Shown piece by piece: positions 22,721 to 36,781 of a stretch of DNA of 46,948 nucleotides; within the stretch, counting starts at the first letter, position 1; each line of letters opens with the position of its first letter. This DNA is from an uncultured Anaerolineae bacterium (GTDB lineage Bacteria; Chloroflexota; Anaerolineae; Anaerolineales; Villigracilaceae), in contig CAIJPN010000157.1 of the NCBI GenBank assembly GCA_903822545.1, positions 1 through 46,948 on the forward strand. Direction: 5' to 3'. Under the pieces are notes generated by a model that saw nothing but the letters and a program-made list of their open reading frames with translations, did no database searches and had not been told where the DNA came from. The position numbers were made by a program, and so were the translations under genes.

Positions 22721-24016
22721 ATGAAAATTGCAATTATTGGGGCGGGATACGCCGGGATGTCGGCGGCCTGGGATTTGCGTAAAGCTGGCTATGAAGTCAC
22801 CATCTATGAATCAGCGGATTATGTGGGCGGGCTGGCGAGCGGCTTCAAGGAGCCTCACTGGAAGTGGTCGGTGGAAAAGTTTTACCACCACTGGTTTGCC
22901 AGCGACTCGCACATGCTGGGGCTGATCGATGAGCTGGGGCTGAAAGACAAGGTGCTTTTTCCGCGCCCATACACGGTGATGTACCACGAAGGCAAGTTTT
23001 ACCCGCTCGATTCCATCATCAAGGCGATTTTGTTCCCGGGCCTGGGCTGGGGCATCAACAAGATCCGTTTTGGGCTGGTGGGATTGTTCCTGCGCCTGAC
23101 GACGAACTGGAAAGAACTGGAAAAGTACACCGTCGATGCCTGGATGCGCAAGTGGTGCGGCGACAAGGTTTACAAGCTGATGTGGGAGCCGCTGGTGATT
23201 GGCAAGTTTGGTGAGAAGTATTACAAACAGGTCAATATGGCCTGGATGTGGGCCAGACTCCACGCGCGAACAACCCGTTTGGGCACGTTCGAGGGCGGGT
23301 TCCAGGCGTTTGCTGATGCGTTCGCGGAAAAACTATCGGCGGCGGGGGTGCAGATCAAGCTTTCAGAGCCAGTGACGCATATTAAGCGGAATGACGCAAC
23401 AGGGCAGATTGAACTTTCGACGGCTGATGGGGTCGAATCTGCCGATAAAGTCCTCGTCACCCTGTCGCCCGGAGTCGCCGCCAAGATGGTTCCGTCGCTT
23501 CCCAAAGATTACCTCGAAGGTTTGCTGCGGTTAAAGTCGATGGGGGCGGTGGTGCTGACGCTTTCGCTTAAGCAGCAGCTTTCACGCGAGGGCTATTACT
23601 GGTACAACATTCCTAAGAGCGCCGGGTTCCCTTTCCTGGCAGTGGTGGAGCATACGAATTATGTTTCGCCGGATAATTTTGGCGGCGACCACATTGTGTA
23701 TCTGGGCGATTATGTGGAGCCGGAACACGAGTATTTCCGCTTGAGCGAGCAGGAATTGCTGGAACGCTTTGCGCCAAGCCTGAAACGCTTTAACCCCGAT
23801 TTTGATATGAGCTGGGTGAACAAAATCTGGATGTATCGCACAACCTATGGGCAGCCGGTGCCGCTGGTGAATCACTCGCAGAATATTCCGGCGATTGAAA
23901 CTCCCATCCCGGGTTTGTATTTCGCATCGATGAGCCAGGTTTACCCCTGGGATCGCGGCACAAACTTTGCCGTGGAGATTGGCCGCCGCGCGGCAGGGTT
24001 GATGATGGGCAAGTAG
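22721..24016 (+). CDS. FAD-dependent amine-oxidase/protoporphyrinogen-oxidase-like protein
   Basis: 431 residues. IGAGYAGMSAAWDLRKAG with ESADYVGG is the dinucleotide-binding fold of the NAD(P)-binding_8/amino-oxidase superfamily; the C-terminal block ASMSQVYPWDRGTNFAVE is the second FAD contact region. The middle (WKWSVEKFYHHWF, WMRKWCGDKVYKLMWEPLV, THARTTRLGTFEGGFQAF pattern) resembles a subgroup of protoporphyrinogen-oxidase-like enzymes often found with lipid or glycan genes. Substrate unknown. Cytoplasmic, perhaps membrane-associated. GGGAGAG precedes the ATG. A strong bidirectional terminator follows. Confidence 0.85.
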   Translation: MKIAIIGAGYAGMSAAWDLRKAGYEVTIYESADYVGGLASGFKEPHWKWSVEKFYHHWFASDSHMLGLIDELGLKDKVLFPRPYTVMYHEGKFYPLDSIIKAILFPGLGWGINKIRFGLVGLFLRLTTNWKELEKYTVDAWMRKWCGDKVYKLMWEPLVIGKFGEKYYKQVNMAWMWARLHARTTRLGTFEGGFQAFADAFAEKLSAAGVQIKLSEPVTHIKRNDATGQIELSTADGVESADKVLVTLSPGVAAKMVPSLPKDYLEGLLRLKSMGAVVLTLSLKQQLSREGYYWYNIPKSAGFPFLAVVEHTNYVSPDNFGGDHIVYLGDYVEPEHEYFRLSEQELLERFAPSLKRFNPDFDMSWVNKIWMYRTTYGQPVPLVNHSQNIPAIETPIPGLYFASMSQVYPWDRGTNFAVEIGRRAAGLMMGK

Positions 24017-24032
24017 TGTTCGGTGGTTGGTA

Positions 24033-24073
24033 ACAAAAACCGCCCTTTCCCGGTTGGAGAGGGCGGTTTTTGT
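24033..24073. terminator. bidirectional terminator between converging genes
   Basis: ACAAAAACCGCCCT (from 24033) pairs with AGGGCGGTTTTTGT (to 24073), 14 bp with a short loop and T-runs on both strands. It serves the FAD oxidoreductase and, on the other strand, the PilZ gene. Confidence 0.9.
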
Positions 24074-24114
24074 TGCCAGGTTTCGCTGAGTTTTCGGTTT
24101 TTGCCAGGTAAAAC

Positions 24115-24150
24115 TTCGCGTAATTCGCGCAATTCGCGCAATTCGCGATA
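24115..24150. repeat. 9-bp tandem repeat, four copies
   Basis: TTCGCGTAA, TTCGCGCAA, TTCGCGCAA, TTCGCGATA in exact tandem, just after the end of the PilZ gene (minus strand). Confidence 0.8.
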
Positions 24151-24173
24151 TGATTTTGACTCCGTTTTGCAGA

Positions 24174-24545
24174 TTACTCGTTAAATCCGTATTCCTTCAC
24201 CAGCCATTCGATCAGTTTTTCATCGGCAGCATCGACGCCGATCATGCGAAAGCCGGTATCAATAAAATCGGGGTTGATGTCGTTGGTTGACCACAGGCTC
24301 TCGGCTTCAAAATCCAGGCGGCTTTTGCCAAACAACGAGGTGGGCAGCATCATACGCACCCGGAAAGTCTCACCAACAGCGATGGGCTCTTCGCTGACCA
24401 GCATGATGCCTTTTGGGGTAATATCCACCAGGTGACCCATCAATTTATCGGTGCTGCGGTCAAAAACCCGCAGGTAGTAGATGAGATGGGCGCGTTTTAA
24501 CTCGCGTTTTTCAGCTTTGTTGATGATGCTATCGCTATTTAACAT
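24174..24545 (-). CDS. PilZ-domain protein (cyclic di-GMP binding)
   Basis: 123 residues from ATG 24545, which has a strong AAGGAG site; longer starts are rejected. KRELKRAHLIYYLRV contains the RxxxR motif and DITPKGIML the (D/N)xSxxG-like motif of PilZ domains; here Thr replaces Ser, which is tolerated. The rest forms the beta-barrel pattern (GETFRVRMMLP, LDFEAESLW, DTGFRMIGVD). Such proteins bind cyclic di-GMP and act on motility, secretion or exopolysaccharide enzymes. The last residues (LIEWLVKEYGFNE) form an amphipathic helix. No partner gene is adjacent. Confidence 0.82.
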   Translation of the reverse strand: MLNSDSIINKAEKRELKRAHLIYYLRVFDRSTDKLMGHLVDITPKGIMLVSEEPIAVGETFRVRMMLPTSLFGKSRLDFEAESLWSTNDINPDFIDTGFRMIGVDAADEKLIEWLVKEYGFNE

Positions 24546-24631
24546 AAAATCTCCTTTCCGCCAAACTATAAGCACTTTCTTATTCACTATACAGCGAAAG
24601 GAGACGCGTTTCAAGTGAAAATCATATCAAT

Positions 24632-25159
24632 TTAGGGCTTGCGCCGCCTGAACCACATCCAGGCCAGGGCGTTTTCGCCGCGCAGGAATTGGTAGTAAAC
24701 CCAGGTGAGCAGGTGCAGCACAATCAGCACAAACAGGATGGTGGAAATTGTTCCGTGAACGGTGCGCAGCGGAAAGGCGTAAAAATCAGCGGGAATAGCC
24801 TGGGTATCGGCAAAAAGCCCGGCTTGCAGGGCCAGCCCAGTTCCGCTGAGCGACATCAGGATGGTAAAAAGATACAGCAACAACTGGACTGGCTCCGCCA
24901 TCGTCACAATCAGCGGCTTTTTCTTTGCCAGCGGATTTTTAACCTTGCGCAGCGGCTTCAGCGTCCGCACCCGGATGGTGTAGCGTGCTACCGTTATGAT
25001 GAGAATTCCCAACCCGAGAAGCATGTGTGCCCATAACGGCAGCAGCTTGACCGGGTTGTCAGGCATCGGGACGAGCACAAACACCCCGATTAGGAAGGTT
25101 GCAAAAATAAATAGCGCCGACAACCAGTGCAACAGGATTAAGGAGGCGTGATACCGCAT
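24632..25159 (-). CDS. cytochrome b561-type membrane protein
   Basis: 175 residues with four transmembrane helices. MRYHASLILLHWLSALFIF carries the first-helix His residues, WAHMLLGLGILIITVARYTIR the second, and FPLRTVHGTISTILFVLIVLHLL the last pair, giving the four His pattern for two haem b groups. It would pass electrons across the inner membrane, for example from quinol to a periplasmic partner. The ATG 25159 is the most likely start by family length, but no Shine-Dalgarno site is visible; longer frames up to 25417 run through a promoter and repeats. The predicted leader is about 160 nt with a perfect hairpin. Confidence 0.82.
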   Translation of the reverse strand: MRYHASLILLHWLSALFIFATFLIGVFVLVPMPDNPVKLLPLWAHMLLGLGILIITVARYTIRVRTLKPLRKVKNPLAKKKPLIVTMAEPVQLLLYLFTILMSLSGTGLALQAGLFADTQAIPADFYAFPLRTVHGTISTILFVLIVLHLLTWVYYQFLRGENALAWMWFRRRKP

Positions 25160-25235
25160 AAGTAAGTTTTTCCAGGTAAGTAAGTTTGAGCTGCCCGTCA
25201 CGGGTGGATCATCGAGAGCCGGCTGTGTAGAAGTA

Positions 25236-25256
25236 GCCCCGCTGTTTAAGCGGGGC
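25236..25256. repeat. perfect 8-bp hairpin in the cytochrome b561 leader
   Basis: GCCCCGCT, GTTTA, AGCGGGGC. It lies about 80-95 nt upstream of the ATG at 25159. It could be a regulatory hairpin or another dispersed palindrome. Confidence 0.55.
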
Positions 25257-25328
25257 GAGGCAGGTTTAGAATGAACCAGTTTAACGCATTTCTCCCAGAC
25301 CGGAGCAGTCTTTTTCGGGATTTTTCCC

Positions 25329-25334
25329 ATTATA
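25329..25334 (-). promoter_or_regulatory. -10 box of the cytochrome b561 gene
   Basis: The minus strand has TATAAT here, preceded by GTGCGC. It overlaps an in-frame ATG at 25330, which argues against that ATG as the protein start. Confidence 0.5.
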
Positions 25335-25489
25335 GCGCACAATGGATACCCCCATCGGTGGCTCTCTGAGAATTTCTGCGCTTGAAGCAGCACGTTTGGC
25401 GGTTTGGCGCAGGGCAAAATGGCAATCCACCGATGGTTTTATACCAAAACACCGCCCGGCGATATGTAGACATTATATAATTAACTCAA

Positions 25490-25586
25490 GTTGCTACCTT
25501 TGGCGCAATCGCCCTCATCCCTGGCCCTTCCCCCGCCGGGGGAAGGGGCCAGGGATGAGAGCAAATTCTCATCCAACGGTAGCAAC
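25490..25586. repeat. 97-bp nested palindrome, MITE-like
   Basis: Outer inverted repeats GTTGCTACC (25490-25498) and GGTAGCAAC (25578-25586) enclose a long hairpin at 25514-25559, whose arms CTCATCCCTGGCCC... and ...GGGCCAGGGATGAG match over about 21 bp with one bulge and a GCC loop. The 500-bp gap 25160-25659 otherwise contains the cytochrome leader and promoter, and no gene that I can support. The G/C-rich inner word resembles the repeat at 45633-45719. Confidence 0.7.
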
Positions 25587-25659
25587 CAGGGTTATTCAAC
25601 CTGAATCTTTATTCCCCAGCCGATTGGATGGGTAAACCATGCTGTAACCCGAGGAACCT

Positions 25660-26295
25660 ATGACCCTGACACCCCTGGCGCTTACCTCCATTACCAACTT
25701 CCTGCTTGCCAGTGAAGCCTTCTTCCTGGCAGGCCTTTTTTTTGCCATTCCTAAAATGCCACGCTCCGCGGCCTGGTACTGGCAATGGGCACTACTATTA
25801 CTCTCCACTTCCGCACTGCTCGGCGGCATCGACCATGGCTTTTTCGAAGTTTTTGGGCAAATCCCGGTTCGCAAGGTTATCGAACACACCAACTGGATTT
25901 TGATCGGCGGAATGACATTGTCCGTTTTCCTGGCAGCCACAGAACAATTTGGCCGTCCCGCCTGGAAGCGAAATCTCACCATCCTGGCTGGACTCCAGTT
26001 TGGAATCTATGTGATCATCAGCCTGCTGATCGATAATTTCCTGGTAGTCATGGCGAACTATGCCCCGGTAATGCTGTGGCTACTAATCGGCAGCTTTCTA
26101 GGGCTGAAGAGCGGCAATGGCACCTGGGCACTGAACATTGGCATCATCGCCAGCTTCATCGCGTCTGGCATCCAGGCCGCCGGTCTGGATCTCTTCACGC
26201 CATTCGACCGTAACAGCCTGTACCACTTCGGCATGATGATCGCAGTGTTTTTTCTCTACCAGGGTGGGAAATCCCTGAAAGGCATTTCGCGCTGA
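25660..26295 (+). CDS. seven-helix membrane protein of unknown function
   Basis: 211 residues with about seven hydrophobic helices and short loops. Conserved-looking polar residues lie in or near helices: GGIDHGFFEVF, EHTNWILIG, LDLFTPFDRNSLYHFGMM. Three His and an Asp placed in this way recall the CREST superfamily of membrane hydrolases (ceramidase-like), but the spacing is not close enough for a firm claim. ATG 25660 follows GAGGAAC. It is alone between the MITE-like element and a convergent terminator. I do not recognise a named family. Confidence 0.7.
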   Translation: MTLTPLALTSITNFLLASEAFFLAGLFFAIPKMPRSAAWYWQWALLLLSTSALLGGIDHGFFEVFGQIPVRKVIEHTNWILIGGMTLSVFLAATEQFGRPAWKRNLTILAGLQFGIYVIISLLIDNFLVVMANYAPVMLWLLIGSFLGLKSGNGTWALNIGIIASFIASGIQAAGLDLFTPFDRNSLYHFGMMIAVFFLYQGGKSLKGISR

Positions 26296-26354
26296 AGAGA
26301 ACCCCGCTCCTGATCGGCGCCGCACCAAAAACAGCAGAACCTGGAATAAGATAA

Positions 26355-26386
26355 AAACGAGCCGCAGTCTGACCCACGGCTCGTTT
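26355..26386. terminator. bidirectional terminator
   Basis: AAACGAGCCG (26355-26364) and CGGCTCGTTT (26377-26386) form a perfect 10-bp stem with a 12-nt loop, between two convergent genes. Confidence 0.8.
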
Positions 26387-26404
26387 CCATATCCAACTCA
26401 CCAA

Positions 26405-27442
26405 TCATTCCACGCTGCGCAAACTCGGCTTGTTTGCATAGCGCTTGCGGATTTCCGGCAAGAAATAATCCTCAAAAAAGCGCCGCACATCATAATCTGG
26501 CTGCCAGCCCCAGTCAGCGCGCGCCAGCGAATCATCCACATCTTCCGGCCACGAATCGACAATGCCCTGGCGACGGCGATTCGGTTCAAAAGTCACCACT
26601 GCGCCGGGGAAGGAACGCATCGCCCAATCGCGGAACTCGCCCGCCGTCAGGCTGAACGCATCGATGTTATAGACATGACTCGTCAATCCTTCCTTGGGCG
26701 CATCCGTGATCGTCAACAGCGCCTTAATGGCATCTGGCATTGCCATAAAAGAAATCTTCGCATCCTCACGCACAAAACAGGCATACGGTTTGCCCTGCGC
26801 CGCAGCGTGCAGCATCTCCGGGCCGTAATCGCTCGTCCCGCCGCTGGGCAGCGTAAAAGCGCTGATCAGCCCCGGGAACCGGATCGCCCGAAAATCCAGC
26901 ATCACCGGCGGGTCTTCATCCAGGTGACGCTGGCCGTAAAAACTGCCATAATACTCGCCCAGTTTCTCACAATACAACTTATTGGCGCCATACATCGTGT
27001 GCGGATTATTCCACTCACCCTCTTTCACCCGCCCGGCCTTGCGCTTGGCCGCCACATCTGGCATACCATACGCCGCAATCGAACTTGGGAAGATAAACTT
27101 CACCGCCTTGCCGCGCCGCTCCGATTTGAAGGCCGCCATCATCAACAACTGCATCGTCCCCTCTACATTGATGCGGTGCGCCTCCTCTGTCGCTACCTCG
27201 GCCTTCGAAGAAAGCGAAGCCGCCAGGTGGAAAATCACATCAAAATCATACGCATAGAATTGCTTCACCCGGTACACCAGGTCACCCTGCACATGCTCGG
27301 CAGCCAGCGACTTGATCGCATCTGGCAGCGGCATCAGGTCGGTTGTCACAATCCGGTAGCCGCCCTTTTTTGCAAGGCCCTGCACAAGCGCCTGACCAAT
27401 TTCACCGCACGCGCCAGTAACCAGGACAGAAAAATCACTCAT
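26405..27442 (-). CDS. NAD-dependent epimerase/dehydratase (extended SDR)
   Basis: 345 residues from ATG 27442, which has AAAGGAG in front; the frame continues upstream to 27952 but that part lies over another gene and is not coding. VLVTGACGEIGQAL is the TGxxGxxG cofactor site, FHLAAS the family motif, PSSIAAYG the Ser and MYGANKLYCE the YxxxK pair. The overall pattern (D-erythronate dehydrogenase or UDP-sugar epimerase-like) points to NAD use on a hydroxy-acid or sugar substrate. The substrate cannot be read from sequence. It is divergent from a lipoprotein gene. Confidence 0.85.
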   Translation of the reverse strand: MSDFSVLVTGACGEIGQALVQGLAKKGGYRIVTTDLMPLPDAIKSLAAEHVQGDLVYRVKQFYAYDFDVIFHLAASLSSKAEVATEEAHRINVEGTMQLLMMAAFKSERRGKAVKFIFPSSIAAYGMPDVAAKRKAGRVKEGEWNNPHTMYGANKLYCEKLGEYYGSFYGQRHLDEDPPVMLDFRAIRFPGLISAFTLPSGGTSDYGPEMLHAAAQGKPYACFVREDAKISFMAMPDAIKALLTITDAPKEGLTSHVYNIDAFSLTAGEFRDWAMRSFPGAVVTFEPNRRRQGIVDSWPEDVDDSLARADWGWQPDYDVRRFFEDYFLPEIRKRYANKPSLRSVE

Positions 27443-27546
27443 CGTTTCGCTCCTTTTGAATTGGTTGTAAATTAATTGTACATTACCCATCCCAAATGTC
27501 ATCCCACATTTGCCACAAAAATTATGGATAAAACTCATCAATCGAG

Positions 27547-27552
27547 TAAAAT
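27547..27552 (+). promoter_or_regulatory. -10 box close to the lipoprotein start
   Basis: TAAAAT ends 8 nt before the ATG at 27561 and there is no Shine-Dalgarno site in the gap (CCTCCCTG). The mRNA would start at or next to the ATG. Confidence 0.4.
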
Positions 27553-27560
27553 CCTCCCTG

Positions 27561-28433
27561 ATGAAACTGTTTTTTGGGAAAATCCCGACCAAATGGCCGC
27601 TCATTGCCATCCTGGGCCTGACCCTGCCCATGCTCATCGCCTGCGCCCCGGCACGAGATTCCACCGCCCCGGCCAGTGCCACCGCTATCGAAACAGGAAC
27701 ACCCCTCCAGACTGCCACCGCCACCATCGACTGGTTCCCGGCCACAGCCACTGCCACCGCGCCGCCCCAGGTCCAGGCCACATCCACGCCCCAACCGCTC
27801 CCCGGCCTGGGCGAACAAACCCTGGCCGACGATTTCAGCAACCCATCGCTCTGGCTCAACGCCAAAAACCAGGGAGATGGCGGTAACAGCATCATCATCA
27901 CCAACAAACGCCTTACACTGGCCGCCAACGTCTCGCCAGTCTTCCTGTTCACCCTGCGCCCTGACTTGCTCCTGACCAGCTTCTATGCTGAAACCCAGGC
28001 CTATGTCAACCGCTGTGAGGGCGCAGATGCTTACGGCCTGCTGTTGCGCGCCGCCAGCCGCGATTATGCCTATCGCTTCATCATCAACTGCAAAGGCGAA
28101 ACCCGCCTCGAGCGGGTGCGCGGCGGCGAAGTTTACCCGCTCTCCAGCTGGGAACCCAGCGGCGATATTCCCTTTGCGCCGGGGCAGGTCAAACTTGGTG
28201 CGTGGCTGGCAGGTGTAGAGATGCGCTTTTTCCTGAATGACCGCTTCCAGTTCCGTGTGCTTGACCCGGTCTTCAAAAACGGCAGCCTGGGCATGTTCAT
28301 CGACTCTCGCAGCCCGGTGGGCATGAACATCGGCTTTGAGAACCTGGTCATTTCGCGTGTCGATTACGCTTCACCCACGCCAACATCCACCCCAACGCGG
28401 ACGCCAACCCCCACCCGCACGAAAAAACCATAA
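27561..28433 (+). CDS. secreted lipoprotein with Thr/Pro linkers and a jelly-roll-like domain
   Basis: 290 residues from ATG 27561. A basic N-terminus and hydrophobic segment end in LPMLIAC, a lipobox, so the mature protein should be lipid-anchored outside the membrane. Residues about 25-80 are a Thr/Ala/Pro-rich linker. Residues about 90-270 have a beta-sandwich pattern (DDFSNPSLW, NKRLTLAA, FYAETQAYV, AYGLLLRAAS, YRFIINC, GFENLVISR) like LamG/DUF1080-type domains. The tail is a Pro-Thr repeat (PTPTSTPTRTPTPTRTKKP). Probable cell-surface binding protein; ligand unknown. Confidence 0.8.
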   Translation: MKLFFGKIPTKWPLIAILGLTLPMLIACAPARDSTAPASATAIETGTPLQTATATIDWFPATATATAPPQVQATSTPQPLPGLGEQTLADDFSNPSLWLNAKNQGDGGNSIIITNKRLTLAANVSPVFLFTLRPDLLLTSFYAETQAYVNRCEGADAYGLLLRAASRDYAYRFIINCKGETRLERVRGGEVYPLSSWEPSGDIPFAPGQVKLGAWLAGVEMRFFLNDRFQFRVLDPVFKNGSLGMFIDSRSPVGMNIGFENLVISRVDYASPTPTSTPTRTPTPTRTKKP

Positions 28434-28473
28434 GTTCACCGTTTACTTCTACAAACGCTCTGGGAACTGACCC

Positions 28474-29355
28474 TTGAAAAACAAACTCAACGAACTCGAA
28501 CCGAAAAGCTGGCTGAAATTCCAGAAATCGTGGTTTATCCACAACCCGCCGCCGCGTAAGAAGGGCGTTTTGCGCCATCCGGCAAAATTCCCTGAGACGA
28601 TGGCGCAGGAGTTTATTGAGTTTTTCACCAAACCCGGGCAGACGGTGCTCGACCCGATGGCCGGAACCGGCTCGACGCTGGTGGCAGCGCTGCGGGCAGG
28701 GCGCAATAGCTATGGCATTGAGCTAAACCCGCACTATGCCGAGATTGCCCGGCAGGTGATCCGCGAGGAGCAGGCGCTTTTGGCCGAAAAACTGGCGGGT
28801 GAGGGGCAGGAATCGGCCGATTTAACGGGAGGAAGCTGTCAGGGCGGTGTTGTGAGCTTCAGGCCAGATAACAGCCTGGTGGCGCGGATCATTACGGGGG
28901 ATGCGGCAAAAGCTGTCGAGTTCGGCATTCCAAAAGTGGAGTATGTGCTCACTTCTCCGCCTTATTGGGATATGCTGCACGCCAAAGGCGCGGAAAACCA
29001 GAAAAAACGGCGTGAAGGTGAGCAGTTGGATGTGGTTTATTCGGATGACCCACATGACCTGGGTAATATCCACGATTACGAGGCTTTCCTGGAAATGCTG
29101 GTGACGGTTTATGTTGGGCTGAAGCCGCTTTTGGCCGAGAAGGCTTATCTGACGATTATTGTCAAAAATGTTAAGAAGGGCGGTAAAATTTACCCGCTGG
29201 CCTGGGATATTGCGCGCGAGCTTGGCAAAGTGTATACGTTGAAAGATGAGAAAATTTGGTGCCAGGATAACCAGCCGCTTGCGCCATTTGGACTGGGCAG
29301 CGCCTGGGTGAGTAATACCTTTCATCATTATTGTTTGCAGTTTCGGAACGAGTGA
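28474..29355 (+). CDS. DNA methyltransferase (N4-cytosine/N6-adenine class)
   Basis: 293 residues. RHPAKFPETMAQEFI is motif X, DPMAGTGSTLVAA (residue ~61) the AdoMet-binding motif I, YGIELNPHYAEIA motif II-III, and TSPPYWDML (~158) the catalytic motif IV (S/D-PP-Y). TSPPY is common in N4-cytosine enzymes but also seen in N6-adenine ones. The AdoMet region precedes the catalytic motif, with a likely target-recognition stretch between or after it. The start is TTG 28474 with only a weak GGGA upstream. The next gene, 46 nt downstream, looks like a PD-(D/E)XK nuclease, suggesting a restriction-modification pair. Confidence 0.85.
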   Translation: MKNKLNELEPKSWLKFQKSWFIHNPPPRKKGVLRHPAKFPETMAQEFIEFFTKPGQTVLDPMAGTGSTLVAALRAGRNSYGIELNPHYAEIARQVIREEQALLAEKLAGEGQESADLTGGSCQGGVVSFRPDNSLVARIITGDAAKAVEFGIPKVEYVLTSPPYWDMLHAKGAENQKKRREGEQLDVVYSDDPHDLGNIHDYEAFLEMLVTVYVGLKPLLAEKAYLTIIVKNVKKGGKIYPLAWDIARELGKVYTLKDEKIWCQDNQPLAPFGLGSAWVSNTFHHYCLQFRNE

Positions 29356-29401
29356 GTTTGGTGCGCCAGTGAAGTGCACTTTTTAGCGAATAGGATAGCC
29401 T

Positions 29402-30400
29402 ATGATTTCGACGAACGATTTTATTAAGTTATCGTATACTCCCGACCTGACCGAAGGCGGGATCGCCTACGCCACCCGCTCCCTGCCTTACACATACAAT
29501 CGCATGGGCGGGTCGCTTTATTCCAGGCTGCGGCGTATTGTAGGCGGCGTGGCGGTGGAATTAGCCTTCCGGCGCTACCTGGGCGAGCAGCAAGTGCCTT
29601 TTGATGTAAAAGGAGCCACACCCTTCACTGAACCAGACCGGTATGACGTGGCGCTGGGCAATCATCGCTGTGACTTGAAAACATTTATTATCTCAAAGCG
29701 CAACCAGATTACATCTATGCGCCACAACCCGGCGCAGGTACTGCGTGCCCCGGCACTGATCCCCGAAGACCAGTTTGGGGCCGTCAATCATACCGATAAC
29801 GACCTGTATCTTTTCGCCTTCCTGCTGGGGCTGACCACCAACTCGCCCGAGGATATCCAGAAAGCTGCCAGTGCCGGGCAGCAGTTGTACCTGATCCATC
29901 CATTGAAGCCAGAGTGGGCGCGCCCGCAGGCGTGGGCCTCGCTGGGACGGCTGGCGCTCAAAAGCGAGTGTGCATCCCCAGTCACTGTAGAAATCGGCGG
30001 ACAGGACATGGAACGCAATTTCATCTCTGAAACGCTGGAACTTGCGCCGCTGACGCGCGTTTTTGCCACACAAACCTATTTCAGCCTGTCGTATATTCAC
30101 GTCAAAGCCATCCCCGAAGCGCGGATTGGCATCCACAGCCCGGCGCTGGGCGAAATTTACCTGATCCAGCCACACGAGTGGGGCAACATCTGGATCTATG
30201 GCATGGAAACCTGGCTGACCGGTTACATGGCGCACGATGAATTCCGCCGCAAGGCCAGCCCGATCATGGCAGGCAGCCGCGTTTTCCAGTATAGTGAAAC
30301 CCAAACCAAGAATTTATCTGTCCCGGTGGCCGATTTGCGCCCACTGCCCGAGTTGTTCGAGCGCGTGCGTGAGTGGGAAACCGCCAAAAAATCATGGTAA
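29402..30400 (+). CDS. putative PD-(D/E)XK-type nuclease partner of the methyltransferase
   Basis: 332 residues, no membrane segment and no family that I recognise. The N-terminal third has an arrangement that fits a PD-(D/E)XK core: a helix with VGGVAVELAFRRYL (Glu), then PDRYDVALGNHRCDLKTF with Asp near 80 and the DLK triplet near 90. The rest contains basic and aromatic patches that could bind DNA. The gene immediately follows a DNA methyltransferase on the same strand, with an AGGA site, which is the main reason to suspect a restriction endonuclease. This is inference; a purely regulatory or repair role is possible. Confidence 0.5.
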   Translation: MISTNDFIKLSYTPDLTEGGIAYATRSLPYTYNRMGGSLYSRLRRIVGGVAVELAFRRYLGEQQVPFDVKGATPFTEPDRYDVALGNHRCDLKTFIISKRNQITSMRHNPAQVLRAPALIPEDQFGAVNHTDNDLYLFAFLLGLTTNSPEDIQKAASAGQQLYLIHPLKPEWARPQAWASLGRLALKSECASPVTVEIGGQDMERNFISETLELAPLTRVFATQTYFSLSYIHVKAIPEARIGIHSPALGEIYLIQPHEWGNIWIYGMETWLTGYMAHDEFRRKASPIMAGSRVFQYSETQTKNLSVPVADLRPLPELFERVREWETAKKSW

Positions 30401-30410
30401 CGGAGGAGAG

Positions 30411-31184
30411 ATGCCCTACACCAACATCCTGACTGAAACGCGCGGGCGCGTGGGACTGATCACGCTCAACCGTCCGCAGGCGCTCAATGCCCTCAATGCC
30501 GCCCTGCTGGCCGAACTGAACGAAGCCCTGGCCGCCTTCGACGCTGACTCTGCCATCGGCGCGATCGTGATTGCCGGTTCCGAACGCGCCTTCGCCGCCG
30601 GGGCCGACATCAAGAGTATGGCCAACGCCAGCGAAGCCGAAATGCGCTCCAGCCCGTTCATCGCCAGCTTCGATAACATCCGCAGCATCAAAAAGCCAGT
30701 CATCGCAGCAGTCAGCGGCTTTGCGCTGGGCGGCGGCTGCGAGCTGTCCATGGCCTGCGACATGATCGTAGCCAGCGAAAGCGCCAAATTCGGCCAGCCC
30801 GAAGTCACCATCGGCGTCATCCCCGGCGCGGGCGGTACCCAGCGGCTCACACACGCCGTTGGCAAAGCCCTGGCCATGGAAATGGCGCTCAACAACCGCA
30901 CACTCTCCGCGGCCGAAGCACTGCAGCATGGATTGGTGAATCGCGTCGTGCCGGTGGAAAGATTCCTCGACGAGGCGCTTGCCCTCGCATCTGAAATCGC
31001 TGCGCGTGCCCCGCTGGCAGTTGCCGCCGCCAAAGCGGCTGTCAACGCCGCCTTTGAACTCTCCCTTACCAACGGCCTGGCCGACGAGCGCGAACGCTTC
31101 TTCCAGCTTTTTTCTAGCCAAGACCAAAAAGAAGGCATGGCCGCCTTTGTGGAGAAGCGCAAGCCAGATTGGAAAGGGAAGTGA
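30411..31184 (+). CDS. enoyl-CoA hydratase/isomerase family protein
   Basis: 257 residues, the standard crotonase length. GLITLNRPQALNAL is the N-terminal block, ERAFAAGADI forms the first oxyanion-hole/CoA region, FALGGGCELSMACD contains the first catalytic Glu and GQPEVTIGVIPGAGGTQRL the second. Both Glu are present, so true hydratase activity is expected, in fatty-acid or amino-acid breakdown. GGAGGAGAG precedes ATG 30411. The stop overlaps the GTG start of the next gene (GTGA), so they are translationally coupled. Confidence 0.92.
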   Translation: MPYTNILTETRGRVGLITLNRPQALNALNAALLAELNEALAAFDADSAIGAIVIAGSERAFAAGADIKSMANASEAEMRSSPFIASFDNIRSIKKPVIAAVSGFALGGGCELSMACDMIVASESAKFGQPEVTIGVIPGAGGTQRLTHAVGKALAMEMALNNRTLSAAEALQHGLVNRVVPVERFLDEALALASEIAARAPLAVAAAKAAVNAAFELSLTNGLADERERFFQLFSSQDQKEGMAAFVEKRKPDWKGK

Positions 31185-31966
31185 GCTTCACCATCCGCGA
31201 ACTCACCCAGGCATTCCAGCAGCTTGGCATCCGAGATATGCCGGTCATCGCACACGCCTCGTACAAATCCTTTGGCGGCGTAGATGGCGGCCCACAAACC
31301 GTAGTAGATGCCATGCTGGCCTCGTTTGCATCCGTCATCATGCCGACACACACCTATAAAACGATGGTCACGCCCCAGGTGGGGCCGCGCCATAACGGGA
31401 TCGATTACGAGCGCTGGTACCCGCACAGCCTAAACGCGGAATTCTACGACCCGGATATGCCATCTGACCCATTGATGGGCATCATCCCCGAAACATTGCG
31501 CCGCCAGACGGGCGCCAAACGCTCCAGCCACCCGATCCTGTCCTTCAGCGGAGTCTGCGCCGACGACATCCTCGCCACCCAGACTCTCGACAACCCCCTG
31601 GCCCCCATCCGCAAACTGGTAGAACTGGATGGCTGGGTTGTGCTGATGGGCGTCAACCACACCGTCAACACCAGCATTCACTGCGCCGAGAAAATGACCG
31701 GGCGCAAACAATTCCTGCGCTGGGCGTTGACCAAAGATGGCATCATCGCCTGCCCCGGCTTCCCCGGCTGCTCCGCCGGTTTTGATGACCTGGCCCCCGA
31801 TGTAGAAATCTTCACCCGCAAAGTCCGCGCCGGGAACGCCACCATCCGCGCCGTGCCATTGCGTGGGCTGTTTGCGGTCGTTTTCGAGCGGCTGAAACGC
31901 GATCCCAAAGACCTGGTCTGTGGCGATATCGGCTGCGAACGCTGCAACGAGATCCGCTACCTGTAA
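31181..31966 (+). CDS. AAC(3)-family (aminoglycoside N3-acetyltransferase-like) protein
   Basis: 261 residues from GTG 31181, which overlaps the previous stop by GTGA and has AAAGGGA before it. AHASYKSFGGVDGGPQTVVDAM and VIMPTHTY are the N-terminal family blocks (Antibiotic_NAT), and RSSHPILSFSGVC the middle one. Such proteins transfer acetyl groups from acetyl-CoA; many members in environmental bacteria act on other amines rather than on antibiotics. The C-terminus CGDIGCERC has four Cys-spaced residues that could bind zinc. Coupling to an enoyl-CoA hydratase suggests a metabolic role. No resistance claim is made. Confidence 0.78.
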   Translation: MSFTIRELTQAFQQLGIRDMPVIAHASYKSFGGVDGGPQTVVDAMLASFASVIMPTHTYKTMVTPQVGPRHNGIDYERWYPHSLNAEFYDPDMPSDPLMGIIPETLRRQTGAKRSSHPILSFSGVCADDILATQTLDNPLAPIRKLVELDGWVVLMGVNHTVNTSIHCAEKMTGRKQFLRWALTKDGIIACPGFPGCSAGFDDLAPDVEIFTRKVRAGNATIRAVPLRGLFAVVFERLKRDPKDLVCGDIGCERCNEIRYL

Positions 31967-32013
31967 CCTCCCGGCTTTACCCTGGCGAAGGTATTGTTAA
32001 TCACCTTATAAAG

Positions 32014-32044
32014 AAAAACGAGCGTCTTTTTGACGCTCGTTTTT
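32014..32044. terminator. bidirectional terminator
   Basis: AAAAACGAGCGTC (32014-32026), loop TTTTT, GACGCTCG (32032-32039) and T5. Strong stem for both the AAC(3)-like gene and the minus-strand YtxH gene. Confidence 0.88.
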
Positions 32045-32066
32045 CATCCAGCCAGTTTGACCATCG

Positions 32067-32294
32067 TCAATCCTTGAGCTGGATACGCGGCGCGCGCAGG
32101 CGCTGTAATTCATCTTCAAGTTCCAATCGGCGGGCATCAGCTGCGTTTTTGACTTCAGCGAAAAAGCCCGTTCCACGTTGGCGAATCTGCCCGCGAAGTT
32201 CCTCACCTGACTTGGGAGCCAACAACAAGGCGATGGTGCCTCCCACCAACCCGCCCACAAAAGTGCCAATCAAAAAGCCAAATATTTTACGCAT
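32067..32294 (-). CDS. YtxH-family small protein
   Basis: 75 residues from ATG 32294 (AAAGGAG site). One N-terminal hydrophobic segment (IFGFLIGTFVGGLVGGTIALLL) with Gly-rich packing is followed by LAPKSGEELRGQI, the YtxH signature, and a charged helical tail likely to form a coiled coil. YtxH proteins are envelope-associated, often stress-induced, with unknown biochemical role. Divergent from the infC operon. Confidence 0.8.
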   Translation of the reverse strand: MRKIFGFLIGTFVGGLVGGTIALLLAPKSGEELRGQIRQRGTGFFAEVKNAADARRLELEDELQRLRAPRIQLKD

Positions 32295-32483
32295 ACGCTC
32301 TCCTTTGCGAATATCAGAAACGTTTAAAAACATTATAGAGCAAATCGGCACGTAATGGAAGATTGATGAATAAAATGTGGTATTCTCCTATAATATGGGA
32401 AGCGACAGGCACTGGCCAGGCAGCATCCCTGGGCCGGAGGAAGATAATACATTCCGTGATTTGCTGCAAAAACCAATAAAAAA

Positions 32484-32513
32484 TTGACGGATTACCATCC
32501 TCTGTGGTATCAT
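32484..32513 (+). promoter_or_regulatory. promoter of infC-rpmI-rplT
   Basis: TTGACG (32484-32489), 18-nt spacer, TATCAT (32508-32513) with an extended TG at 32505-32506. A second -10-like TATAAT lies upstream at 32389-32394. The main transcript should begin near 32520. Confidence 0.7.
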
Positions 32514-32526
32514 CAGCCCGCTCAAA

Positions 32527-32545
32527 AGCCAGCCGCAGGCTGGTT
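32527..32545 (+). promoter_or_regulatory. hairpin at the 5' end of the infC mRNA
   Basis: AGCCAGCC, loop GCA, GGCTGGTT: 8 bp including one G-T wobble, ending 17 nt before the AAGGAG ribosome binding site. TTTTATTATT follows after GCCCG. It may be a leader control element for IF3 or L20 feedback or an mRNA stabiliser; it is not a clear terminator. Confidence 0.45.
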
Positions 32546-32573
32546 GCCCGTTTTATTATTCAAGGAGATCGCT

Positions 32574-33116
32574 ATAGCTGAGCAGGAATTTCGAGTAAAT
32601 GAGGCCATTCGGGTTCCCGAAGTGCGCCTGATTGGTCCGACAGGTGAAAACCTGGGCGTTGTGCCTATCCGCCAGGCGATTCAGATTGCCCGCGACGCCG
32701 AGATGGACTTGGTGGAAGTTTCGCCCAATGCCGCCCCGCCTGTTTGTCGTGCAATGGATTTTGGCAAGTTCCTTTACGAACGCGAAAAAAAGGAACGCGA
32801 AGCCAAGAAAGCCCAGACCAAAATCGAGGTCAAGGAAATCCGCCTTCGTCCCAAGACGAATGAACATCATCGCGGCTTCAAGGTGGATGATGCGCGTCGC
32901 TGGCTGCTGCAGGGCCATAAAGTGCGTGTTACCGTCAAATTCCGGGGCCGCGAAATGGACTACCCCGAGCTGGCGCTGGAAGACCTGAAAGAGATTGCCC
33001 AATCCCTGTCAGACATCAGCATCATTGAACAGCCACCCATGATTGAGGGCCGCACCATGCTGGTAGTGCTGGGCCCGGCCAAAATCAAGAAAAAAGGCGA
33101 TAAACCCGGCGAATAA
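32574..33116 (+). CDS. infC: translation initiation factor IF-3, AUA start
   Basis: 180 residues, the usual IF3 length. N-domain: FRVNEAIRVPEVRLIG; linker rich in Lys (EREKKEREAKKAQ); C-domain: EIRLRPKTNEHHRGFK and VTVKFRGREMDYPELA. Start choice: AAGGAG at 32562-32567 is 6 nt before ATA GCT GAG at 32574, and no ATG, GTG or TTG lies in frame nearby. The in-frame TTG at 32484 is the -35 box of the promoter. infC is known to use rare starts (AUU in E. coli) so that IF3 represses itself; AUA would work similarly. First gene of the infC-rpmI-rplT operon. Confidence 0.9.
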   Translation: MAEQEFRVNEAIRVPEVRLIGPTGENLGVVPIRQAIQIARDAEMDLVEVSPNAAPPVCRAMDFGKFLYEREKKEREAKKAQTKIEVKEIRLRPKTNEHHRGFKVDDARRWLLQGHKVRVTVKFRGREMDYPELALEDLKEIAQSLSDISIIEQPPMIEGRTMLVVLGPAKIKKKGDKPGE

Positions 33117-33150
33117 CCGGCTTGAGCATCCCCCCAAGATTTGTTTAATC

Positions 33151-33175
33151 CCGCGGGAGTACGTCGATCCCGCGG
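33151..33175 (+). promoter_or_regulatory. stem-loop in the infC-rpmI spacer
   Basis: CCGCGGGA (33151-33158) pairs with TCCCGCGG (33168-33175), 8 perfect bp, followed by TTATTTT. It lies between infC and rpmI, where L20-dependent control structures are found in other bacteria. It could be an L20 site, an attenuator or an RNA processing signal. Confidence 0.5.
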
Positions 33176-33201
33176 TTATTTTGCCCGAAAGGAGAAAGAC
33201 A

Positions 33202-33429
33202 ATGCCTCGCAAGCAGAAAGATGCGAAATTCAAACTGAAGACACATAAGGCGACCTCCAAGCGGTTTCGCCTGACCGGGTCTGGGCTTTTAGTACGCTCA
33301 AAAGGTGGCAAAAGCCACCTGCGCCGACGCACATCCAAGCGCACCAAGACTTTGCTGGCCGAGACCATTCCGGTCAGTGGCCGTGGCATCATCAAGCGCG
33401 TCCGCCGTCTCGTGCCGAATCTGAAGTAG
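33202..33429 (+). CDS. rpmI: 50S ribosomal protein L35
   Basis: 75 residues, very basic. KTHKATSKRFRLTGSG is the L35 signature near the N-terminus, followed by SHLRRRTSKRTK. GGAG precedes ATG 33202; a start 7 codons earlier would include the ribosome binding site and is rejected. Second gene in infC-rpmI-rplT. Confidence 0.96.
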   Translation: MPRKQKDAKFKLKTHKATSKRFRLTGSGLLVRSKGGKSHLRRRTSKRTKTLLAETIPVSGRGIIKRVRRLVPNLK

Positions 33430-33519
33430 GCGTTTTATCCAACATTTGATTTGCGGACTACCGGGTGTTCACAACTGGCATGACCTGCCGACGCCCGGGG
33501 GTTTGCAGGAGGTTCAAGA

Positions 33520-33864
33520 ATGCGTGTAAAAGGTGGTCCGTACGGACATCGCCGTCATAAGAGAGTACTCGATATTACCAAAGGCCAGCGTGGGGCCAAG
33601 CACTTCCTCTTTAAGCGTGCCAACGAAGCAATGCTTAAGAGCCTGTGGTATGCCACTCGCGATCGCCGCGTTCGCAAACGCGAACTGCGCCGCCTGTGGA
33701 TTGCCCGCATCAACGCCGCTGCGCGCCTGAATGGGACAACCTACAGCCGCCTGGTGGCTGCCATGCGCAAGTCTGATATCGCGCTCAACCGCAAGATGCT
33801 GGCCGACCTGGCCGTGCGCGACCCGCAGGCGTTCGCCGCGGTCGTGGCCCAGGCCAACCAGTAG
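33520..33864 (+). CDS. rplT: 50S ribosomal protein L20
   Basis: 114 residues. [16 protein letters not shown] is a diverged form of the usual N-terminal tail, and [23 protein letters not shown] contains the strongly conserved block (RDRRxRKRxxRxLWIxRINAA). L20 binds 23S rRNA early in assembly and represses its operon in other bacteria. AGGAGG sits 8 nt before the ATG. The 90-nt spacer before it has a CCGGGTGT... ACGCCCGG hairpin-like stretch. Confidence 0.96.
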
Positions 33865-33884
33865 ACTGCAACAGTGCAAAAAAC

Positions 33885-33915
33885 AAAACCGGGTGGGCAA
33901 CCATCCGGTTTTTTG
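33885..33915 (+). terminator. terminator of the infC operon
   Basis: AAAACCGGGTGG, loop GCAA, CCATCCGGTTTTTT: 12-bp stem with one G-T wobble, GNRA loop and T6. Confidence 0.9.
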
Positions 33916-33935
33916 ATTCAAGCACAGGGGAAGTG

Positions 33936-34883
33936 TTATGGTTTTAGCAGCACCTTCATCATCCCGGCTTTGGAGGCTTCATTCATCGCTACGATGCCTT
34001 GCTTGAGCGGGAATTCGGCCTGGATGAGCACTGTCGGGTCGATTTCGCCACTTTCCAGCAGACGCAGCGCCGGGTCGAAGGGGCCGCAGCGTGAACCGAT
34101 CACGGTGATTTCATCCACCACCAGCGAGGACATGTTCAGGGTGATATCACCCTTGTAGGTGGATTTCATCACCATGATGCCGCGCGGGCGCACGGCTTTG
34201 CGCGCCACCGCAAACCCCGCCGGGGCGCCGGTGGCTTCCACAACCACATCCCAACGCCCGGCCTGGATGGCGGATTCTTCAATTGTGGCAATCTTTCGAT
34301 CAGCCAACATTTTCTTTTGGATGTCATGCCGCGCCAGCACTTGCAGGTTACAGCCAGTCAAGGCCAGGGTCTGGGCGATAAGCTGCCCCAGCCGCCCCGC
34401 TCCCACAACGAGCACCCGGTCAACAGGCCGGATCTGCACCTGCTGCTGGATTTCCAGCGCTGCTGCCAGTGGCTCGGTAAAAACTGCGGCTTCATCTGAT
34501 ACTGAATCAGGGACAATATGCAGGTTTTTTAATGGCAGCGAGGTGTATTTTGCGAAAACGCCGTTGCGGTTGACGATTCCCAGCACGCTGCGCCGCTCAC
34601 AGTGTGTTTCGCGCCCGTTGCGGCACTGCTCGCACTCCCCACAGGTAACGTTGATCTCGCCGACCACGCGCTTGCCCAGCCAGGCATCCTCGGACGACTC
34701 GACCACTTCACCGACAAACTCATGGCCCAGAACCCCGGTGAAGGGGTAGTAGCCCTGCATCAGTTCCAGGTCGGTGGCACAAATCCCGGCCAGCCGAATC
34801 TGGATCAACGCCTCATCATACTGCGGCGCGGGCGGGATGTTTTTAAAAAACAACTGCCGGTTTTCGAGCCAAAGTCCCTTCAT
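33936..34883 (-). CDS. zinc-dependent alcohol dehydrogenase family protein (MDR)
   Basis: 315 residues from ATG 34883 (GAGG site); the longer frame to 35063 overlaps mutL and is rejected. GICATDLELMQGYYPFTGVLGHEFVGEV gives catalytic-zinc Cys, His and Glu (cited parts GICATDLE and GHEFVGEV), CGECEQCRNGRETHC the four Cys of the structural zinc, and VVGAGRLGQLIAQ the Rossmann site. It oxidises or reduces a sugar, polyol or alcohol with NAD(P). Shorter than the usual 340-350 residues because the N-terminal part is compact. Lies downstream of mutL on the same strand with an 80-nt gap. Confidence 0.85.
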   Translation of the reverse strand: MKGLWLENRQLFFKNIPPAPQYDEALIQIRLAGICATDLELMQGYYPFTGVLGHEFVGEVVESSEDAWLGKRVVGEINVTCGECEQCRNGRETHCERRSVLGIVNRNGVFAKYTSLPLKNLHIVPDSVSDEAAVFTEPLAAALEIQQQVQIRPVDRVLVVGAGRLGQLIAQTLALTGCNLQVLARHDIQKKMLADRKIATIEESAIQAGRWDVVVEATGAPAGFAVARKAVRPRGIMVMKSTYKGDITLNMSSLVVDEITVIGSRCGPFDPALRLLESGEIDPTVLIQAEFPLKQGIVAMNEASKAGMMKVLLKP

Positions 34884-34963
34884 GGCAACCTCATCTGTGG
34901 CATCGGACTCCAAAGTCTCCAGGCTTTGGAATATTCTCAACATCAGGAGATGTTGGAGTCTGT

Positions 34964-36781
34964 TTAGCGCGCGCCCTTGCGCCCAAACTGCCGCTCCAGC
35001 AAATCCACCGAAATGTGGATCATCGTTGGACGGCCATGCGGGCAGGTGCGCGGCGAATCGCAATTTTCTAAATCGGAGAGCAGTGCGCGCTGTTCATCGG
35101 GATTGAGCGCCTTCCCGGCCTTGACCGCCAGCCGTTTGCACACCCGCCCGGCGATTTTGGCTTCGATTTCGTCTTGCAGCGGGGATTCATCTTCCTCGAA
35201 ATCTTCCACCAGCGCCCGCAGCGCCGACGCTGGATCAGCATTCCCGAACAGAACCGGCATGCCTCGCACCTGGAAAGTGTTCGGGCCAAATGACTCCACC
35301 TGAAACCCGAAATGTCCCAGCGTAGGCAACTGGCTTTCCAGCAGGCTGGCCGACTGTGGCGGCAGCGTCACCATCACGGGCGATAAAAGCGCCTGCGATG
35401 GGATGTTTTTCTGATTATGCTGGAGCATCAGCTTCTCGAACAGTACCCGCTCGTGCGCCGCGTGCTGGTCGATCAGGTACAACCCATCTGGCCCCTCGGC
35501 AATGAGATAGGTTGCGCCCACCTGCCCGACGAGACGTAAGAGTGGTAAGTGATAATTGGTGATTGGTAATTGGCCGGTTTCTGGCAGGTTGGATGGTTGG
35601 ATGGTTGATTCGGTTGGGGAATTTTCACCTTCCAACCTCTCAACCTGCAACCTGGGACCTTCATCATGCCCAATCGCCCATTCCAACGCTGCCCCGGGCT
35701 GGTTACTGTTCCCTGATGACTGATTACTGCTCCCGCCCCACAGGTTTTGCGTTACCGGCACAGATGGGACTGGCGAATAGGCCAGCAGCCCACGCCGCAC
35801 CGCCCGCTGGACAAAGCTGAAGGCCCGCTCTGGCGCGCGGAAACGAACTTCGGCTTTGGCCGGGTGAACGTTAACATCCACATCCTGCGGGTCAAGCTCC
35901 AGGAAAATCGCCGCCAGGGGAAAGCGTCCCACCATCAGCAAGGTGTGATAAGCCTGGATGAGTGCTGTCGAAAGCGGCGTATCCGAAACCCAGCGGCCAT
36001 TGATAAAAAAGGTAATATCCTTGCGGTTCGAGCGTGTCAGCGAGGCCGGGCTGATGTAGCCGCTCAGGCGCATCACCCCGCCAGATTCGGTTGTGGAATC
36101 GTCTTCAGCCAGCACTTCCAGCATTTGTTTGGCCACATCCACCCCGTAGAGTGATGCCAAAATCGCGCGGCGGTCGCCATCCCCGGCGGTTTGCAGCGTG
36201 GGGGTGGGGCCATCCATTAAACGGAATCGCACAGACGGGTAGGCCAGCGCATAGCGCGTCATCAGCCCGTCGATAGCACGGCGTTCGGTCAAATCCTGTT
36301 TTAAAAATTTCAGCCGCGCAGGCACATTGTAGAACAGGTCTTCCACCCGCACCACCGTGCCAGCTGGCGCGCCCACCGGCTCCACCCGGCCCATGATGCC
36401 GCCCTCCACCCGAATTTTTGCGCCAATTTCAGCATTTTTAGCGCGGCTGGTCAGCGTCAGGCGCGAAACCGAGCCAATCGAGGCCAATGCCTCACCGCGA
36501 AACCCCAGCGTGGAAATGCGGAACAGGTCACCCGCAGCCACCAATTTGGATGTGGCGTGGCGCTCCACCGCCAGCAGCAGTTCGTCAGCCGGGATGCCGC
36601 TGCCATCATCGGCCACCTCGATCAGGCGGCGGCCCGCCTCGGCAATGTTCACTGTCAGCGTGCGTGCGCCGGCATCCAACGCATTTTCAACCAGCTCTTT
36701 GACCACCGAAGCCGGGCGTTCAACTACTTCCCCGGCGGCAATTTGCGAAGCGACTTCAGGAGCGAGAATTTGAATGGACAT
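34964..36781 (-). CDS. mutL: DNA mismatch repair protein MutL
   Basis: 605 residues. N-terminal GHKL ATPase: IAAGEVVERPASVVKELVEN, DAGA, DDGSGIP and GFRGEALASI. C-terminal domain: DQHAAHERVLFEKL is the DQHAxxExxxE metal motif of the endonuclease-type MutL, and CPHGRPT the second zinc/metal site, so nicking activity is expected, unlike E. coli MutL. The linker at residues about 347-417 is encoded by three kinds of short-word repeat (35530-35735). The start ATG has no Shine-Dalgarno site but a TATAAT ending 6 nt upstream. mutS is not adjacent. Confidence 0.95.
   Translation of the reverse strand: MSIQILAPEVASQIAAGEVVERPASVVKELVENALDAGARTLTVNIAEAGRRLIEVADDGSGIPADELLLAVERHATSKLVAAGDLFRISTLGFRGEALASIGSVSRLTLTSRAKNAEIGAKIRVEGGIMGRVEPVGAPAGTVVRVEDLFYNVPARLKFLKQDLTERRAIDGLMTRYALAYPSVRFRLMDGPTPTLQTAGDGDRRAILASLYGVDVAKQMLEVLAEDDSTTESGGVMRLSGYISPASLTRSNRKDITFFINGRWVSDTPLSTALIQAYHTLLMVGRFPLAAIFLELDPQDVDVNVHPAKAEVRFRAPERAFSFVQRAVRRGLLAYSPVPSVPVTQNLWGGSSNQSSGNSNQPGAALEWAIGHDEGPRLQVERLEGENSPTESTIQPSNLPETGQLPITNYHLPLLRLVGQVGATYLIAEGPDGLYLIDQHAAHERVLFEKLMLQHNQKNIPSQALLSPVMVTLPPQSASLLESQLPTLGHFGFQVESFGPNTFQVRGMPVLFGNADPASALRALVEDFEEDESPLQDEIEAKIAGRVCKRLAVKAGKALNPDEQRALLSDLENCDSPRTCPHGRPTMIHISVDLLERQFGRKGAR
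35530..35735. repeat. short-word repeats inside the mutL linker
   Basis: Three classes on the plus strand: GGTAAGTGATAATTGGTGAT followed by TGGTAATTGG near 35542-35570; GCAGGTTGGATGGTTGG (~35583) paired with CCAACCTCTCAACCTGC (~35633-35649); and GACTGATTACTG (~35718), identical to part of the spacer repeat at 10118. All are read in frame on the minus strand as the flexible MutL linker. Confidence 0.65.

Follow-up and report, generated by a model that had tools for sequence, protein, structure and literature searches.

A methyltransferase and putative nuclease pair fixed in the chromosomes of Anaerolineales, with the putative nuclease retained in many genomes despite a broken site

Type II restriction-modification systems are built from separate methyltransferase (M) and restriction endonuclease (R) genes. 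Methyltransferases that stand alone are reportedly conserved as well, with CcrM-like enzymes and others, including those of a Halobacteria study, as examples. For the opposite case, solitary restriction endonucleases, the accessible part of one survey describes 272 scattered R genes without a cognate M, many of them fragments, and names active-site mutation among the possible reasons for their existence (PMC3488263). From Chloroflexi CL500-11, a member of the Anaerolineales, the accessible part of another report describes M.AbaBS3I, an m4C methyltransferase with target GCWGC, which is recorded there without a restriction partner and is only 22.9% identical to its best REBASE match (PMC6329791). 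This was the only report found in a limited open-access literature search on Anaerolineales and restriction-modification, and an equally limited search on broken or domesticated restriction enzymes did not find the pair described here in titles or abstract openings.

Here, we analysed a 46,948-nucleotide stretch of DNA from a member of the Villigracilaceae (hereafter, the window), in which a methyltransferase gene is followed by a gene for a protein without a known family; going forward, we refer to these as M and B. A first-pass annotation had read the two genes as a compact type II-like system. Beyond that annotation, we find that the pair is an old chromosomal locus and that many genomes lacking M keep a B whose site is broken. 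The features of the locus are as follows.

26405..27952, minus strand: epimerase/dehydratase-like ORF, named from sequence reading by eye; second landmark (cluster 1), called start probably too long, no functional link claimed.
27510..28433, plus strand: lipoprotein-like ORF upstream of M, no Pfam family; conserved landmark (cluster 0), no functional link claimed.
28474..29355, plus strand: M, an amino-methyltransferase (N4mC or N6mA type) of 293 aa with a TTG start.
28651..28677, plus strand: motif I of M, DPMAGTGST (residues 60-68); D60, P61, M62, G64, G66 and S67 are kept in 44/44 sequences.
28951..28968, plus strand: catalytic motif IV of M, TSPPYW (residues 160-165), in 44/44 aligned M sequences.
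29402..30400, plus strand: B, a family-less protein of 332 aa with an ATG start, putative PD-(D/E)XK restriction nuclease.
29402..29791, plus strand: N-terminal half of B (residues 1-130), the putative nuclease half, with slow evolution confined to cases that combine M with an intact site.
29558..29560, plus strand: E53 of B (VELAFRR), first putative catalytic residue, from the alignment.
29645..29647, plus strand: D82 of B (YDVALG), from the alignment.
29672..29680, plus strand: D91-L-K93 of B (CDLKTF), the putative (D/E)xK pair, from the alignment.
29792..30397, plus strand: C-terminal half of B (residues 131-332), with W172, K187, G200, W260, G267 and G274 conserved in active and broken B.

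The two ORFs are arranged as first annotated, with the methyltransferase ahead of the 332-residue protein on the same strand, and 46 bases separate them in our ORF reading. M belongs to the N4/N6 amino-methyltransferases: it scores 83.3 bits against Pfam PF01555, above the curated cut-off of 26.7, and both the AdoMet and the catalytic motif are present, in agreement with its description as a complete amino-methyltransferase. As had been claimed, the AdoMet motif lies ahead of the catalytic one (residues 60-68 versus 160-165); the stretch that matches PF01555 best, residues 15-93, aligns to positions 139-220 at the end of the 221-position profile, consistent with a circularly permuted order with the AdoMet motif first. 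TSPPY(W) is typical of N4mC enzymes, and on this typing the base marked by M is probably N4-cytosine. At 293 aa, the window M exceeds the ~270 aa usual in its relatives, with an apparent insert after about residue 104, and the M of genome G005 is likewise long. In-frame inserts of another kind occur in two further genomes. The insert in G015 (L073:7557-9497), near residue 263, has Pfam intein-splicing and LAGLIDADG matches and by these is identified as an intein within a restriction-type methyltransferase. The insert in G075 (L125:2855-4729) interrupts TSPPYW itself; it has intein-like ends as well as a LAGLIDADG match and is a probable second intein at another site of the same protein.

B contains the E...D...DLK arrangement pointed out in the first-pass annotation (E53, D82, D91, K93), and we were likewise unable to place it in a known family, with zero matches in Pfam, PADLOC, NCBIfam and PHROGs up to E=1. 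When 44 B members, aligned as A1, were compared with Pfam, the only matches were isolated ones, none better than E 0.031; A1 was hand-picked from 75 diverse rows with broken ones mostly omitted, and invariance of the site inside it is not counted as evidence. A missing profile match leaves a PD-(D/E)XK fold possible. The remote-homology and structure checks proposed earlier were run. Against PDB sequences, the best match of the 44-sequence B profile was an unrelated protein at E 0.93, and a profile of the N-terminal half (33 sequences) reached E 2.3 at best, with all matches up to E=10 unrelated. Relatives of B were not found in phage, plasmid and viral-contig collections. AlphaFold2 yielded low-confidence models only, with mean pLDDT 45.0 for whole B (five sequences: the window and L031-L034) and 40.6 for residues 1-171 (five sequences), and Foldseek with the whole-B model returned 621 matches at E<=10, zero of them at E<=0.001; we excluded the models and the Foldseek matches from the evidence. 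The compact type II-like system as first proposed is partly supported: the conserved pairing and the tie between site and M, described below, speak for such a system, and the PD-(D/E)XK fold found no support in the models. The PD-(D/E)XK signature has E in a helix, then D and D-x-K on a hairpin; the spacing of E53, D82, D91 and K93 fits this, and the low-confidence models place a helix at 39-59 and strands at 82-85 and 88-91. An E-D-(D/E)xK motif is too short to convince in one protein, so the weight lies on its behaviour across relatives.

The adjacency that the first-pass annotation had put up for checking is conserved, so the first of the outcomes that it named as refuting did not occur. 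Among the 91 M-positive genomes for which the B locus was fetched, 70 have M on B's stretch, and in 70/70 of these it lies upstream of B on the same strand, within 200 bp in 54/70 and up to 2.2 kb away in the others. Where genes intervene between M and B they are often defence-like (L039:5513-6553, L044:6109-7668, L068:1722-3537), with a YhcG/DUF1016 nuclease in G024, a DUF4365 protein in G006, and a second methyltransferase plus a small unplaced ORF in G059. Among the 21/91 unlinked cases, seven have <1 kb of contig upstream of B and 14 have M elsewhere or beyond the stretch read. Ten of these 14 genomes have an intact four-residue site in B with at least 1.8 kb upstream of B read without M, so M would protect in trans.

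The same setting recurs before the pair, with the epimerase-like gene on the opposite strand in 84 loci and the lipoprotein-like gene in 94. Between the lipoprotein-like gene and B, the 53 M-positive loci have a median gap of 1026 bp and none below 838 bp; in the 41 M-negative loci the median is 110 bp, and 39 of them do not exceed 433 bp. Thus, the setting is retained and the gap closed where M is missing, as in-place deletion of M from a vertically inherited locus would leave them. Several genera stay together on the B tree, and a transposase was not noticed among the ORFs read at 24000-35000. The M-B pair is not a roaming cassette, and B is found mostly in one chromosomal setting.

B is present in 138/152 genomes of the window's family (86/88 good ones), while an M orthologue (E<=1e-30) is present in 85/152 (55/88 good ones). 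In these 152 genomes, 83 have B and M, 55 have B only and 2 have M only, with genes missing from incomplete assemblies a source of error in these and all following presence counts. An order-wide sample of 251 genomes includes 101 with B and 107 with M (60 both, 41 B only, 47 M only). Sampling of the class (298 genomes; B in 14, M in 11) and of the phylum (301 genomes; B in 18) recovered these genes solely within the window's own family. In two families of the order sample, f5 and f14, many genomes have M and no B, and the B proteins that adjoin M in f5 are broken in all 4 read. B is much wider spread and steadier than typical restriction genes, and we count this against a restriction reading.

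We scored the site of B in a four-site form (E53, D82, D/E91 and K93, aligned on the window) and in a six-site form that adds G71 and D79, two conserved residues near the site in sequence, and scored M as present if found anywhere in the genome. The first set had 147 aligned rows, 145 of them scorable, after removal of L031 and L032 as duplicates and of G028 as a 50-aa B fragment. The four-site form is intact in 72/89 M-positive versus 27/56 M-negative rows; with genus g9 set aside, the counts for the family are 61/76 versus 0/9. All 27 M-negative rows with an intact site belong to g9, which has 44 M-negative rows, and none of the 27 retains both G71 and D79. With the six-site form, 67/89 M-positive rows are intact versus 0/56 M-negative rows. 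G71 and D79 were added post hoc, from a residue-difference comparison that skipped seven remote or partial rows, and G008, G146 and G168, which are M-positive members of g9, are already without G71/D79. A strict rule that the four-residue site never occurs without M is ruled out by genus g9.

The out-of-sample test did not need G71 and D79. A prediction noted before fetching was applied to 40 unseen B proteins from other families of the order (G742, G751, G803, G811, G789, G826 and G730 having been excluded beforehand as partial or weak), and the site was intact in 14/22 M-positive versus 0/18 M-negative rows, identically for the four-site and six-site forms (Fisher p 2e-5, not corrected for kinship). 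W260 of the C-terminal half was retained in 40/40 of these rows. With both sets summed, the four-site form is intact in 86/111 M-positive versus 27/74 M-negative rows, and the six-site form in 81/111 versus 0/74; the four-site form is thus broken in 25/111 M-positive rows. In the first set, 12/145 rows have lost two or more of the four residues. Altogether, these counts support a tie between the E-D-(D/E)xK site of B and the presence of M, as a restriction nuclease would need.

Correction for kinship leaves a consistent direction with too few contrasts for significance. On a tree of the C-terminal half (178 rows), M changes 15 times and the four-site state 27 times. Well-supported branches provide 8 independent contrasts for the four-site form (4.8 concordant, 0.2 discordant, 3.0 no difference; median p 0.125), and the six-site form gives 4.7 concordant, 0.0 discordant and 3.3 no difference (p 0.0625). 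A kinship test on a smaller set had 6 pairs (p 0.375). The trees omit the remote outliers G045, G047 and G060, and the 178-row tree also omits G765 and G823.

To compare selection on the two halves of B, with the boundary at residue 130/131 being our choice, we used 42 disjoint B pairs, many with dS above 1, so that dN/dS values are rough. The ratio of dN in the N-terminal to the C-terminal half has a median of 0.48 in 18 M-positive intact pairs, compared with 0.76 in M-negative intact (9), 0.75 in M-negative broken (5) and 0.82 in M-positive broken (3) pairs; mixed-class pairs give 0.63 (3), 0.70 (1) and 0.82 (3). The 18 M-positive intact pairs differ from the 17 others when the seven mixed-class pairs are excluded (Mann-Whitney p=0.0005), and the difference is also found outside g9 (17 vs 4, p=0.006). 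The only M-positive intact pair inside g9 (G168, G146) has a ratio of 0.79, and the g9 signal may therefore be partly a genus trait. Whole-gene dN/dS medians are 0.12-0.17 in all four unmixed classes; the rest of B is under purifying selection regardless of site or M, and the broken B is therefore not a pseudogene. Over all M-negative rows, conserved columns were lost from the N-terminal half (11/33) and not from the C-terminal half (0/27; p 0.0006). This excess did not reach significance in the subsets, with p 0.12 for M-negative intact rows, 0.06 for M-positive broken rows and 0.35 for broken rows outside g9. The conserved C-terminal half of broken B points to a possible binding role.

Site avoidance was compared for 416 palindromic motifs between genomes with intact and other B, and avoidance linked to the pair was not found among them, either pooled or grouped. 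The strongest pooled signal, GGCC (O/E 0.69 vs 0.42), was rejected as a target because it is gone within genera (0.31 vs 0.32 in g9, 0.75 vs 0.80 in g12, 0.15 vs 0.17 in g18). GATC was rejected as well, being missing in some genomes out of step with B. With both strands counted, 0 GATC were seen versus about 196 (G011), 31 (G100) and 33 (G042) expected, and GATC is also absent or nearly so in the G032 and G035 loci, with no relation to B state seen. GCWGC showed no avoidance signal in the fetched genomes, and none of the fetched loci has a very high GCWGC density like that reported for CL500-11. M as the GCWGC enzyme M.AbaBS3I is only a lead.

On balance, we think it rather probable that M and B represent an ancestral type II-like restriction pair, probably intact in the window, in which the nuclease was repeatedly disarmed, mostly ahead of the loss of M, and then kept for another role. 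B is likely a nuclease of a new family. The pair would have become fixed in a single chromosomal setting before the order split into its families, with M marking a short DNA target, probably by N4-methylcytosine, and B, through its putative E-D-(D/E)xK site, cutting DNA without the mark. Both appear intact in the window genome. For many relatives, we infer that the cutting site of B was broken first, with M still present, and that M was then deleted in place. Retention of the reading frame and C-terminal half of B would then imply a further function independent of both cutting and M, and the simplest candidate would be DNA binding at or near the old target. We see about even chances for the larger claim that the order has domesticated a restriction enzyme. 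On that view, an ancestral type II nuclease belonging to a new family lost its activity on many occasions and survives in inactive form as a maintained core protein with its own role, which would probably be to read DNA at the former target, whether methylated or not.

The coupling of site and M would be explained equally well if B were a nuclease or other DNA-acting partner dependent on M, for example in epigenetic control or repair, whose site decays as useless after M is lost. Such an account also suits the vertical and near-universal occurrence of B across the family, which is unusual for a restriction gene. However, with the site broken in 25/111 rows that have M and the six-site form kept in 0/74 that do not, breakage often precedes M loss, and a useless partner fits less well than a restriction pair; neither gene requires the other, given 47 genomes with M and no B and 41 with B and no M in the order sample. 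We thus consider a dependent partner unlikely. Profile and fold matches were not found, as expected if B is not a nuclease and E53, D82, D91 and K93 form some other M-dependent site, such as a binding site, with a superficial likeness to PD-(D/E)XK. Against this stand the residue spacing, with the helix and strands predicted at low confidence, and the joint loss of two or more site residues in 12/145 rows, and we judge it decidedly improbable. M without B and B without M are both widespread, which would also be seen if an ordinary orphan methyltransferase lay beside an unrelated core gene by chance, but the site of B tracks M, also among the unseen proteins of the out-of-sample test and in genomes with M unlinked, and such a coincidence seems scarcely credible.

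With the restriction-pair origin as our preferred reading, an unplaced, widely conserved protein gains a testable identity, and the roughly 15 changes of M on the tree become a natural experiment on the dismantling of a restriction pair. If the disarmed B has its own function, new cellular DNA-binding proteins would arise from restriction enzymes, a transition that is usually assumed and not observed, and the order's "orphan" methyltransferases may be, or may once have been, partnered by a nuclease that went unrecognised.

How does the locus compare with described systems? The closest full-length relative of M among plasmids is a Haloferax lucentense plasmid DNA methyltransferase (WP_275880820.1, L193; 41.1% identical over 99% of M); unlike M, it is followed by an ATP-dependent helicase and has no B annotated alongside. 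M.AbaBS3I, as described in the accessible part of its report, is an m4C-type enzyme from the same order, the type that M would share if its motif is typed correctly. Like conserved orphan methyltransferases, M shows strong conservation and within the order frequently occurs with no B, but it differs in that its putative nuclease partner is ancestral and usually linked. Like the solitary restriction endonucleases of the accessible survey text, B occurs without a cognate M; in contrast to them, it forms a single orthologous family that continues under purifying selection and in which loss of the site was followed against loss of M. The pair resembles a type II system, with an adjacent, co-directional methyltransferase and putative PD-(D/E)XK protein and, in counts uncorrected for kinship, an R site confined to M-positive genomes apart from its reduced form in g9. 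It differs in an R that is family-less, vertical and near-universal in the family, and whose broken form is kept as a conserved protein. The unusual part of the M-B pair is its chromosomal fixation, together with the upkeep of the disarmed B.
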